This document shows, piece after piece, positions 7,792-11,997 of a stretch of 23,376 bases of DNA. The first letter of the stretch is position 1. Each line of letters opens with the position of its first letter. This DNA is from a virus. The position numbers and the translations under genes are program-made. The notes under the pieces are model-generated. The model saw nothing but the letters and a program-made list of their open reading frames with translations. It was not told where the DNA came from and searched no databases. Location of the stretch: the IMG/VR virus record IMGVR_UViG_3300030060_006063, positions 1 to 23,376 of that record; one strand, given 5' to 3'.

Positions 7792-7823
7792 TTTGGTGAA
7801 TTAAATTATTTATTGTATGTTTG
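7792..7823 (+). promoter_or_regulatory. Bacteroidetes-type promoter for the replication operon
   Basis: TTTG (7792-7795), 20 bp, TATGTTTG (7816-7823): an exact match to the Bacteroidetes sigma-A consensus. The ATG at 7852 follows 28 nt later, so the leader should be about 20-23 nt, A-rich and without a Shine-Dalgarno sequence. The rest of this 154-bp divergent gap is A+T-rich, with an imperfect inverted repeat (AGAAAAA at 7759-7765, TTTTTCT at 7778-7784) that could be an operator but may be chance in such DNA. Confidence 0.8.
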
Positions 7824-8494: not shown

Positions 8495-8918
8495 TTTATC
8501 TGAAATAAAACAAATTATTAAATTTATGAGAAATAATTTGATTAGACAAGATAGAGCTGTTCAACTAATTAGTTTAGATGAATATATTAGTTTTTTTACA
8601 ATGATACCAAAAAAATACTGGTCAACAGAACCTATATTCTATTTTAGAAAAGGTAAATTTGATGCTCTTGGATTTTTGGGTGAAAGACCACATGACTTTA
8701 ATATAGTATCTAAAACTTTAAGTATGTATTATAGTGAGGGTATTGGCATAAGATTAGTAGATATTTTAGATAATTGTGAAAAATTATACTCAAATATAAG
8801 TTGTCAAAAAGAGAGGGTCTTAAAATCATTAAAAGATTTGAAGAAAAAATTAAGTGAAAATAGATTAAAAATATTATATAGAAAATCAAGACAAATTTGC
8901 GATGGAAGATATTATTGA
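8436..8918 (+). CDS. Hypothetical replication-region protein
   Basis: 160 residues from the ATG at 8436, which has an A-rich run (AAAGAAA) before it; an earlier in-frame ATG at 8397 would deepen the overlap with the upstream gene and has a poorer context. The N-terminal half is helical (KYLEETNDLSEIKQIIKFMR), the middle holds aromatic strands (PIFYFRKGKFDALGFLG), and the C-terminus is strongly basic (KSLKDLKKKLSENRLKILYR). The basic end suggests nucleic-acid or protein binding. It sits in the operon just before the DnaA domain IV-like gene, overlapping it by 17 nt. No family recognised. Confidence 0.55.
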   Translation: MTTQEIVETNFTKYLEETNDLSEIKQIIKFMRNNLIRQDRAVQLISLDEYISFFTMIPKKYWSTEPIFYFRKGKFDALGFLGERPHDFNIVSKTLSMYYSEGIGIRLVDILDNCEKLYSNISCQKERVLKSLKDLKKKLSENRLKILYRKSRQICDGRYY

Positions 8919-9309
8919 AAATAAAGTAGATATGCTTTTTGGTATTACAGAAGCATTATCTGGAGTTACAAGGAAAATGATAACATCTAAAAAAAGGCAT
9001 CAAAATGTTGCTTTACCAAGAAATATCATTGGATATATGTTACACAACGAGCTTGGTGTGACAGTTATTAATAGTGGTAAAATTATAAATAGAGACCACT
9101 CAACAATTACTCATTATAGTAAAACATTTGAAAATAATTATAATTATTATACTGAGTTTAAAGAATTATATACAAATATTAGTGAAATATTTTGGAGTAA
9201 TTTTTTAGAAGCTCATAGTTGTGATATTGATATTGAGGTTAAAAACTTGCAAATATTAATTGATAGACTGGAACAAAAGAAAATAAATTTATTAACTAAA
9301 AGTAATTAA
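8902..9309 (+). CDS. Stand-alone DnaA domain IV-like DNA-binding protein
   Basis: 135 residues. Residues about 30-80 match the C-terminal DNA-binding domain of DnaA: SKKRHQNVALPRNIIGYML at 29-47 corresponds to the basic loop and first helices (the R-x-x-LPRQIAMYL region), and INRDHSTITHYSK at 62-74 corresponds to the signature RDHSTV-H motif that recognises DnaA boxes. There is no AAA+ domain and no Walker motif, so it cannot open an origin by itself. The rest is a helical C-terminal tail that may dimerise. It lies between an unknown early gene and the SSB-like gene. It may bind a phage origin, recruit the phage helicase, or compete with host DnaA at oriC. Domain match is strong; the role is inference. 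Confidence 0.8.
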   Translation: MEDIIENKVDMLFGITEALSGVTRKMITSKKRHQNVALPRNIIGYMLHNELGVTVINSGKIINRDHSTITHYSKTFENNYNYYTEFKELYTNISEIFWSNFLEAHSCDIDIEVKNLQILIDRLEQKKINLLTKSN

Positions 9310-9311
9310 TC

Positions 9312-9593
9312 ATGGAAGAAAAAAAATATGTAAATGGAGTTTTAATCAAAGAAAAAACATTTGATAATGGTGGCTCTCAACTAAAAATGTCTATAAAAGT
9401 TGAAGATTTTATGGCTGAATTAAAAAGTATAGAGGATAATGGTTGGGCTAATTTAATAGTTAGCAAAAGAAAAGAGCCATCAGACAAAGGTGTGACACAT
9501 TATGTTAAGGTTGACACCTGGAAACCTGACTCATCTAAAGCTAAACAAACAGTTTCCCAAGGCAGCTCAAATACTGATGACCTGCCATTTTAG
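9312..9593 (+). CDS. Small SSB-like protein with acidic C-terminal tip
   Basis: 93 residues ending in NTDDLPF, the acidic-hydrophobic tip typical of bacterial single-strand binding proteins (DDDIPF in E. coli), preceded by a Ser, Gln and Gly-rich linker as in SSB. The body (KKYVNGVLIKEKTFDNGG, then VEDFMAELK, then a conserved-looking SKRKEPSDKGVTHYVKVDTWKP at about 51-72) is short for a full OB-fold SSB but strand-rich. It starts 2 nt after the DnaA-like gene and is followed by the candidate structured RNA. Likely role: single-strand DNA binding or recruitment of host repair and replication partners through the tip. The tip is plain; the body family is not confirmed. Confidence 0.65.
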   Translation: MEEKKYVNGVLIKEKTFDNGGSQLKMSIKVEDFMAELKSIEDNGWANLIVSKRKEPSDKGVTHYVKVDTWKPDSSKAKQTVSQGSSNTDDLPF

Positions 9594-9613
9594 TAGAGAA
9601 GTAAAAAACATGT

Positions 9614-9684
9614 AAGTAGGTGGGTGTGAGGCTATTTAATATGTCGTCTCCGTAGCCTAATGTGTTCAACACACTCACTTGCTT
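9614..9684 (+). ncRNA. Candidate structured RNA or cis element in operon gap
   Basis: In the only sizeable gap of the plus operon (9594-9703), AAGTAGGTGGGTGTG (9614-9628) pairs with CACACTCACTTGCTT (9670-9684) over 15 consecutive positions, 3 of them G-U. Inside, AGGCTA (9629-9634) pairs with TAGCCT (9653-9658) and stacks directly on the long helix, leaving an 18-nt loop and an 11-nt bulge. A competing hairpin, TGTGT-TCA-ACACA (9661-9673), would break the long helix, so a two-state switch is possible. The local G+C is above its neighbours. It is not a tRNA. Options: leader controlling the replication protein at 9704, a processing site, or part of a replication origin. Confidence 0.45.
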
Positions 9685-9703
9685 TCATTAAACAAAACAA
9701 AAT

Positions 9704-10306
9704 ATGATGAATAGAAAATTTAAAGGAATTTGGATTCCTAATTATATATGGCTGTCCAAAAACCTAACATTACAAGAAAAGATATTCCTGGTTGAAATAG
9801 ATTCTTTGGATAACAATGGGGGTTGTTATGCGAATAATTCTTACTTCGGAAAGTTCTTTGGACTTTCTAATACCAGGGTATCTCTTGTAATTAAATCATT
9901 GATTGATAAGGGTTATGTAACATCTACGATAAACCAAAAACAGGGTAATAAAAGAATATTAAATACCTCTTTAACTAAACGTAAAGACCCTATTAAACAA
10001 AACTTAAAACATAATAATACAATTATAAAAACAAATAATAAAGAAAAAGAAAGATTGTTTGAGATTTTTTGGAAACTATATGATAAGCCAGTTTCTAAAA
10101 AACCTGCTAAAGATAAGTTTTTAAAACTATCTATAGAGGATTGTAATAAATGTATTGATATTACCCCTATGTATGTTCAAAGCACTCCTGACAAAAAGTT
10201 CAGGAAACATGCTGTCACCTGGCTTAATCAGGAGTGTTTTAACGATGACTACACAGTTAATAATGGCCAAATATCATCTGGCAAATTAAAAGGGATGGTA
10301 TTATGA
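9704..10306 (+). CDS. Winged-helix phage replication protein
   Basis: 200 residues. The N-terminal part (1-85) is a winged-helix domain of the replication-initiator kind: FKGIWIPNYIWLSKNLTLQE, then a helix-turn-helix with ANNSYFGKFFGLSNTRVSLV and IKSLIDKGYVTSTIN forming the recognition helix and wing. The C-terminal part (about 120-180) has FEIFWKLYDKPVSKKPAKDK, then FRKHAVTWLNQECFNDDY, the FW-LY-K and WLN-E pattern of helicase-loading or replication-organising phage proteins. Its stop overlaps the primase-helicase start by 4 nt (ATGA), which supports joint work at the fork. It probably binds the phage origin and brings in the helicase. A purely regulatory role is less likely given the C-terminal motif. 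Confidence 0.75.
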   Translation: MMNRKFKGIWIPNYIWLSKNLTLQEKIFLVEIDSLDNNGGCYANNSYFGKFFGLSNTRVSLVIKSLIDKGYVTSTINQKQGNKRILNTSLTKRKDPIKQNLKHNNTIIKTNNKEKERLFEIFWKLYDKPVSKKPAKDKFLKLSIEDCNKCIDITPMYVQSTPDKKFRKHAVTWLNQECFNDDYTVNNGQISSGKLKGMVL

Positions 10307-11997
10307 GTTTCTTTAATTATGGTATAAAAATAAATAGGAATAGTGGTCAAACAAAAACTAAATGTCCTAAATGTTCTCATGAAAGGAGAAAGAGTAGTGA
10401 GCCATGTTTATCTGTAAATATAGATGAGGGTATTTGGAATTGTCATAATTGTGGGTGGAAAGGTTCTTTAAAAAAACAAAATTACATGAGTGAAATAAAA
10501 TACATAAAACCAAAGGTAAAACCAAAAGTTTCAAAATATACTGATGGACTTTTAGATTTCTTTAAAAGTAGAGGCATATCAGAAAAAACATTATTAAAAA
10601 ATAATATATCTGAGGGTTCGGAATATATGCCACAAACTCAATCAGAAAGGAATACTATTCAATTCAATTACTATAGAGATGGTGAACTTGTTAATATTAA
10701 ATATAGAGATGCTGAAAAAAACTTTAAACTTGTAAAAGATGCAGAAAAAATATTATATGGATTAGATGATATAGTTGGATGTGATGAGGTTATTATAGTT
10801 GAGGGTGAAATGGATAAGCTTTCTTTTTATGAGGCTGGTTTGAAAAATTGTGTATCAGTACCAAATGGTGCTTCAAATACAAAACTTGATTATTTAAAAG
10901 ATTTTCCAGATGATTTAAAAAAGGTTTATATAGCAACAGATACCGATGGGCCTGGTAGAAAACTTGCAGAAGAGTTATCAAGACGTATAGGTAGAGATAT
11001 ATGTTATAGAGTTGATTTTAAAGAATGTAAAGATGCTAATGAGTATATATTAAAGTATAATTTACAGGATTTATGTGAAAAAATAAAAACAGCAAAAGCA
11101 TATCCTTTAGAGGGTGTGATAAGTTTAGATAGTTTTGATATAGACATAGATGATTTATATAAAAATGGTATGTCAAGTGGAGATAAGGTTAATCATGTTA
11201 ATTTTGATAGGTTGTTTAGTTTTAAGACATCTCAATTAACAGTAATAACTGGAGTACCCACGCATGGTAAAAGTAATTGGCTTGAGCATATTTGTATGAG
11301 ATTATCTTGTATGCACAACTGGAGTTTTGGTGTTTTTTCACCAGAACATTACCCCTTACAATTACACTTTTCTGTATTAGCTGAAAAATTTATAGGTAAA
11401 ACATTTAGGGAAGAAACTATATATAATAGAATGACAAAGGGTGAGCTTAATGCAGCTAAACAATTTATATCAAAAAAATATCATTGGATAAGGCCTGATG
11501 GTGATGTTTTTACTATTGACTCAATTTTGTCATCTGCTGCTGGTCTTGTTAAAAGACATGGTATAAAAGGTTTAATAATAGACCCTTATAATAAAATTCA
11601 TGCTCCTATGGGAAGTCAAAGTGAAACACAATATATTAATGACTTCTTGACCAAATTAACAATATTTAAACAGAAATATGATATACATATATTTTTAGTG
11701 GCACACCCAAGGAAAATGCAGAAAAAAGAAAATGGTTTATATGATGTGCCTACATTATATGACATAGCTGGCTCTGCAAATTTTTATAATCAGGTTGATA
11801 ATGGGATTACTGTTTATAGAGATTTTCAGTCTGGCTATAGTCATGTTTATGTTCAAAAGGTAAAATTTAGACACATAGGTGAAATAGGTGAGGCTACATT
11901 TACATACAACATGCAAAACGGCAGGTATTATGAATCAACAGAGCAACCAGATAACAATAGCTACTTAAAAGAGCCTGAGCAGTTGAATTTAATTTAA
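10303..11997 (+). CDS. Bifunctional DNA primase-helicase
   Basis: 564 residues with the domain order of T7 gp4. Zinc finger: C21, C24, C47, C50 (CPKC and CHNC). TOPRIM primase core: E168 in IIVEGEMDK and D213/D215 in ATDTDGPG, which bind metal for primer synthesis. DnaB/gp4-type helicase: Walker A GVPTHGKSN at 317-325 with K323; FSPEHYPLQLH at 345-355 (the FS-E motif); Walker B GLIIDPYN at 423-430 with D427; FLVAHPRK at 464-471; and VYVQKVKFR at 515-523 as the final conserved strand with the likely arginine finger region. The protein would unwind DNA and lay primers at the phage fork in the cytoplasm. No DNA polymerase gene is in the window, so polymerase may come from elsewhere in the phage or from the host. 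Confidence 0.93.
   Translation: MSFFNYGIKINRNSGQTKTKCPKCSHERRKSSEPCLSVNIDEGIWNCHNCGWKGSLKKQNYMSEIKYIKPKVKPKVSKYTDGLLDFFKSRGISEKTLLKNNISEGSEYMPQTQSERNTIQFNYYRDGELVNIKYRDAEKNFKLVKDAEKILYGLDDIVGCDEVIIVEGEMDKLSFYEAGLKNCVSVPNGASNTKLDYLKDFPDDLKKVYIATDTDGPGRKLAEELSRRIGRDICYRVDFKECKDANEYILKYNLQDLCEKIKTAKAYPLEGVISLDSFDIDIDDLYKNGMSSGDKVNHVNFDRLFSFKTSQLTVITGVPTHGKSNWLEHICMRLSCMHNWSFGVFSPEHYPLQLHFSVLAEKFIGKTFREETIYNRMTKGELNAAKQFISKKYHWIRPDGDVFTIDSILSSAAGLVKRHGIKGLIIDPYNKIHAPMGSQSETQYINDFLTKLTIFKQKYDIHIFLVAHPRKMQKKENGLYDVPTLYDIAGSANFYNQVDNGITVYRDFQSGYSHVYVQKVKFRHIGEIGEATFTYNMQNGRYYESTEQPDNNSYLKEPEQLNLI

Follow-up and report, generated by a model that had tools for sequence, protein, structure and literature searches.

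A covarying hairpin RNA in front of a phage replication initiator gene and its possible role as a leaky terminator

The window analyzed here is a stretch of 23,376 nucleotides, positions 1 to 23,376 of the 29.6-kb virus contig IMGVR_UViG_3300030060_006063. Within it, a 110-nt gap (positions 9594 to 9703) separates an SSB-like gene (9312 to 9593, + strand) from an O-like replication initiation gene (9704 to 10306, + strand; HTH_36, PHROG 270), which is followed by a primase-helicase gene (10303 to 11997, + strand; Toprim and DnaB_C, PHROG 239). The O-like gene possibly starts at the ATG at 9707 rather than at 9704, because the proteins of relatives begin with MN or MK. The operon is otherwise tight, as a sequence-only reading of this DNA had claimed: ORF-to-ORF gaps range from -98 to +19 nt, so that all other neighboring ORFs lie within 19 nt of each other. 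The raised G+C content claimed in the same reading was also found (44% in the 71-nt hairpin described below and 35% across the gap, versus 29 to 33% in the surroundings).

The SSB-like gene encodes a 93-aa protein that belongs to a well-conserved family and has a C-terminal DDLPF tip. No Pfam family was assigned to it, and its AlphaFold model (mean pLDDT, 80) had no PDB match at an E value of ≤0.001. One of 10 family members matched Pfam gp32, at an E value of only 0.06, and a tblastn search with the protein against annotated phages gave no match; the SSB label thus comes from the DDLPF tip and the gene context. Directly upstream, at 8902 to 9309, lies a gene for a small protein with a DnaA C-terminal (DnaA-box binding) domain. 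Similarity to phages of Flavobacterium, Tenacibaculum, and Cellulophaga suggests a host of the Bacteroidota type, as do the A-rich leaders without Shine-Dalgarno sites, which have been described in Flavobacterium (PMC6847099). The leader of the O-like gene (9691 to 9703, + strand) is of this A-rich kind and is unpaired in the predicted fold. A search of bacterial genomes for prophage copies returned distant, partial O-like matches only.

Folding of the gap (9594 to 9703) as the + strand gave -29.0 kcal/mol and a z score of -3.57, and none of 200 shuffled sequences folded equally well; the fold of the - strand was unremarkable (z score, -0.59). The two helices proposed in the sequence-only reading were recovered at the same positions. 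Helix P1 has 15 consecutive pairs between a 5' arm at 9614 to 9628 and a 3' arm at 9670 to 9684, and helix P2, which is stacked on P1, has 6 pairs (9629 to 9634 with 9653 to 9658). P2 encloses an apical loop of 18 nt (TTTAATATGTCGTCTCCG, 9635 to 9652) that occurs once in the window, and an 11-nt bulge containing ATGTGTTC lies on the 3' side at 9659 to 9669. Past the last G-C pair of P1 comes a T-rich tail (TTTCATTA, 9683 to 9690). All of these features are on the + strand. P1 includes one U-G and two G-U pairs, which point to RNA rather than DNA.

A second claim, that the fold has two states, fared less well. The competing 5-bp hairpin at 9661 to 9673 can be drawn, but not as an alternative state: for the 71-nt hairpin, the minimum free energy is -26.4 kcal/mol and the energy of P1 plus P2 as described is -24.9 kcal/mol, while the fold with the 9661-9673 hairpin reaches -18.8 kcal/mol, which is 6.1 kcal/mol above P1 plus P2 and 7.6 above the minimum, and its pair probability is about 0.001. 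In one relative, L004, the bulge is deleted and the alternative hairpin cannot form. We therefore rejected a two-state riboswitch. The sequence-only reading could not match the element to a known riboswitch or tRNA, and this agrees with our searches: Rfam release 15 gave no match at the gathering threshold (sub-threshold matches had E values of 3 to 8), and ARAGORN called neither a tRNA nor a tmRNA at this position. A leader peptide in the loop (ATG TCG TCT CCG TAG) was rejected as a general feature, as L005 has no ATG there.

The window's element type is represented by four distinct sequences: the window itself, L002 (3300037847_005806), L004 (3300030118_004476), and L005/L006 (3300047668_001112 and 3300046103_002822). 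In a hand alignment of these, 13 of the 15 P1 positions are variable, and only 2 of 59 cells are unpaired; a MAFFT alignment with an RNAalifold structure gave 94.7% of cells paired. Changes on both sides occurred in 7 of 19 pairs, a number matched by 0 of 500 shuffles (the shuffles ignore relatedness), and pairing fell to 32 to 52% when the partner was slid by 1 to 3 columns. Several independent compensations are visible among the four sequences. The compensatory changes that the sequence-only reading had proposed to look for in the gaps of relatives are thus present.

While P1 diverges, the apical loop is kept in the form TTTAA-N-ATGTC-N-TCCG: between the window and L004, 17 of 19 loop positions are identical versus 16 of 30 positions in the P1 arms. 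The loop of L005 is longer and less similar (15/23). The window shares its 3' bulge with L002 and L005. When the viral collection was scanned for patterns of the conserved core, the known contigs came back along with one unrelated match (L258), which has no such hairpin; the window's type is therefore confined to its close clade. Among the annotated phages, no isolate of this clade turned up. The element is a genuine, covarying, lineage-restricted cis-RNA. This was one of the interpretations offered from the letters alone, and it is borne out by the compensatory changes, a signal specific to the transcribed strand, the absence of an Rfam match, and hairpins that reappear at this position in related phages.

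These recurrent hairpins were seen in many further loci, for which the primase-helicase, SSB-like, and O-like proteins served as queries. Where an SSB-like gene is followed by an O-like gene, the gap nearly always contains a strong hairpin, the sequence of which is unrelated between clades. Of 40 distinct gaps, 34 fold better as the + strand (Wilcoxon P = 2.5e-6, without correction for relatedness), with median z scores of -3.5 for the + strand versus -1.7 for the - strand, and the gap outranks every other 70-nt window of its locus in stability in 16 of 34 loci. T-runs (5 or more T among the 8 nt that follow the stem) are found in most relatives: 23 of the 40 gaps have one, while 2,000 random draws gave a mean of 4.1 and a maximum of 11. 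In many relatives, the stem has only 9 to 14 pairs. The hairpin recurs, although its sequence is replaced between clades. In one close relative, 3300012953_001072 (L016/L105; O protein, 84% identical), the gap is missing altogether, and the stop codon of the SSB-like gene overlaps the start of the O-like gene (TAATG).

A second conserved RNA type occupies the gap before the O-like gene in nine loci (L041, L042, L043, L051, L060, L066, L076, L078, and L081). It consists of a G-rich outer stem, a small covarying hairpin with an ACTAC-like loop, an invariant ATTAAATGTTT, a closing arm, and a T-run. The reverse complement of the core in the window's type shows a likeness, by eye, to the ACTAC/ATTAAAT motif of this other clade, over a short, AT-rich match.

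The same gap can also hold tRNA-like elements. In L118 (3300005595_000013), it matches the Rfam tmRNA model (63.4 bits, E value of 2.4e-22) at positions 2782 to 2859, with the whole mRNA-like domain missing. In this tagless tmRNA domain, which was also gathered as L287 from the same contig, the acceptor is 7 bp long and includes G3-U70, and the discriminator is A. The D-loop reads TTTGGTTTTGAC, a central stem is present, and the T-arm has 5 bp and the loop TTCGACT. Smaller elements, which have a T-arm plus acceptor with little or nothing between them and no T-runs, lie in the gaps of L005 (4842 to 4889), L021 (908 to 951), L025 (1164 to 1206), and L020 (196 to 210 and around); the one in L005 has G3-U70 and is located upstream of that locus's window-type hairpin. 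A canonical T-arm with a 5-bp stem was found nowhere else among the loci gathered before a wider scan.

How would the genes beyond the hairpin be transcribed? The Bacteroidota promoter consensus is TTG-N17-23-TANNTTTG (PMC2483708 and PMC6847099). On the + strand, a promoter-like site (TTG-N20-TATGTTTG) is found at the head of the operon, at 7793 to 7823, and there is no match between those at 7793 and 11983, although the pattern is weak because matches are frequent in this AT-rich DNA. With no promoter in that interval, the O-like gene would be either read through the hairpin or served by processing. Together with the T-runs, this makes a leaky terminator or attenuator placed mid-operon the simplest reading, to which we assign a probability of about 0.5. 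As expected of an intrinsic terminator, a stable hairpin is present on the transcribed strand and not on the other (z scores as given above). The standard pattern is exceeded by the 18-nt loop and the 11-nt bulge, and a terminator pattern scan that covered short loops only did not call the window's hairpin; we thus class it as terminator-like, not as a standard intrinsic terminator. Within the window's type, L002, L004, and L005 have a T-run as defined above, uninterrupted in L002 and L004. In the window, the count reaches 5 T in 8 when it begins at the last G-C pair of P1, and the run is interrupted.

We propose that the hairpin would be cotranscribed in the middle of an early replication operon and that some transcripts would have their 3' end there, downstream of the SSB-like gene. 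Only some polymerases would continue past it into the genes for the O-like initiator and the primase-helicase, so that the DNA-binding protein would be abundant and the initiator limiting, a situation comparable to that at lambda tR1, which precedes O and P. Read-through or the translation of O would probably be tuned by a factor of phage or host origin acting on the conserved apical loop and bulge. Lambda tR1 is Rho-dependent, and the genes downstream of it (O and P) depend on read-through. Like tR1, the window's element is placed mid-operon, ahead of replication initiator genes; unlike tR1, it has a longer stem that carries a conserved apical loop and is bulged on its 3' side, and it has no identified antiterminator or nut-like site. 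N-dependent read-through of lambda terminators has been described (PMC6544977). As a functional kind, a device of this sort in the window would be familiar and fairly ordinary.

Several observations speak against a terminator. The window's own T-run is imperfect, the conserved apical loop would be superfluous in a plain terminator, and 3300012953_001072 does without the gap. Since 17 of the 40 gaps have no T-run after the stem, termination is not the whole story at this position, and termination alone does not explain the conserved loop, the bulge, or those 17 gaps. The two main rivals, an operator and RNase processing, are compatible with attenuation.

The first rival, which we consider unlikely, is an operator: a protein would bind the conserved apical loop and the 3' bulge and thereby control how the O mRNA is translated or how stable it is. 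Candidates would be a host protein or one of three phage proteins (O-like, SSB-like, or DnaA_C-like). The T4 gp43 and gp32 translational operators are structured RNAs with a conserved loop sequence near a replication gene, and the window's RNA shares these traits. The conservation of its loop while the stem diverges (17/19 versus 16/30 between the window and L004) is suggestive only, and other clades have a conserved motif of their own at the same place (the ACTAC loop plus ATTAAATGTTT). Unlike the T4 operators, the window's hairpin is not over the initiation site: it ends about 20 nt before the start codon, which it leaves uncovered. Its ligand would be putative, and the whole element is missing from 3300012953_001072.

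In early transcripts of T7, RNase III cuts long hairpins with asymmetric bulges between the genes of a polycistronic mRNA. The window's hairpin is likewise long, intergenic, and asymmetrically bulged, with 15 plus 6 stacked pairs and the 11-nt bulge on the 3' side, and putative cleavage of these 21 stacked pairs by RNase III would part the message of the SSB-like gene from that of the O-like gene. Where a relative has a tRNA-like element in the gap, RNase P and tRNase Z would act instead, and the acceptor/T-arm elements in L118, L005, L021, L025, and L020 are consistent with mRNA processing. The stems of many relatives, however, are shorter (9 to 14 pairs), and most relatives have T-runs, a combination that suits termination better than the T7 type of site; we regard processing as an unlikely explanation of the window's element.

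It appears improbable to us that the gap harbors a small RNA acting in trans, or a cassette RNA that sits there without control over its neighbors. The turnover of sequence at this position, the complete tmRNA-type domains in the gap of L118, and the gapless relative would all suit such an RNA, but the position is constant over 40 distinct gaps. The small RNA suggested in the sequence-only reading is possible, though improbable, and no promoter that fits the Bacteroidota consensus lies in the gap. A DNA-level replication origin or single-strand initiation site, suggested by the location directly in front of the initiator gene, is very improbable, because the folding signal is confined to the transcribed strand, P1 has U-G and G-U pairs, the hairpin core occurs once in the window and is not repeated, and the absence of the gap from 3300012953_001072 indicates that the element is dispensable in at least one lineage.

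Beyond the leaky terminator proposed for the window, we speculate more broadly that phages of Bacteroidota-type hosts exchange different structured RNA devices in this gap, all of which would uncouple the SSB-like gene from the initiator. The devices would be terminators with clade-specific factor-binding loops and tRNA-like elements, tagless tmRNA domains among them, cut by tRNA-processing enzymes; the RNA in the window would be a new regulatory member of this set, specific to its lineage and recognized by a factor that the phage encodes. This reading is tentative, and we find it possible but doubtful. The element is an undescribed, well-covarying cis-RNA at a point where the phage must balance a DNA-binding protein against a replication initiator, and the 40 comparable gaps offer material for studying how such control is built and replaced. 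That related phages reuse one gap for such different structured RNAs is striking.

The tagless tmRNA domains are neighbors of this finding and do not explain it. For tmRNA domains, we looked for a 7-bp acceptor with G3-U70, a GGTTTCGAC D-loop, and a 5-bp T-arm with a TTCRANN loop. A pattern scan of the viral collection for a D-loop and T-arm 15 to 45 nt apart found 41 contigs. About 28 distinct sequences from these (contigs among L259 to L299) take on this same domain fold, with lengths of 59 to 85 nt and nearly all with G3-U70 and discriminator A. A covariance model (R1) built from 25 tagless domains matches L118 and L005 and has no match at 9594 to 9703 of the window. The window's element differs from the tRNA-like domain of tmRNA (RF00023), a copy of which fills the same gap in L118, in having no T-arm, no D-loop, and no 7-bp acceptor with G3-U70, and we rejected the idea that it is a degenerate tRNA or tmRNA domain.

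Full-length and two-piece tmRNAs are already known in phages (PMC9004378). In the open-access literature, we found no description of a tagless tmRNA, of a tRNA-like processing site in phages, or of such an RNA in Bacteroidetes phages. The tagless domains may represent an undescribed RNA that is widespread in phages and becomes charged with alanine, and if functional, they would be relevant to the way in which phages influence ribosome rescue or alanine charging. The R1 model has one match each in the isolated Streptomyces phages Shaeky and pSt2308 (L300, positions 1501 to 1578 of PV588686.1, and L301, positions 1491 to 1569 of MT701595.1), with which Rfam agrees; both domains lie unannotated inside tRNA clusters.

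A strong inverted repeat (ACTCCTGA ... TCAGGAGT) is located inside the O-like gene of the window, at 10176 to 10240. It is missing from L021, L033, and L035 and is found in L002 to L005, and it is a candidate origin or a coding coincidence.
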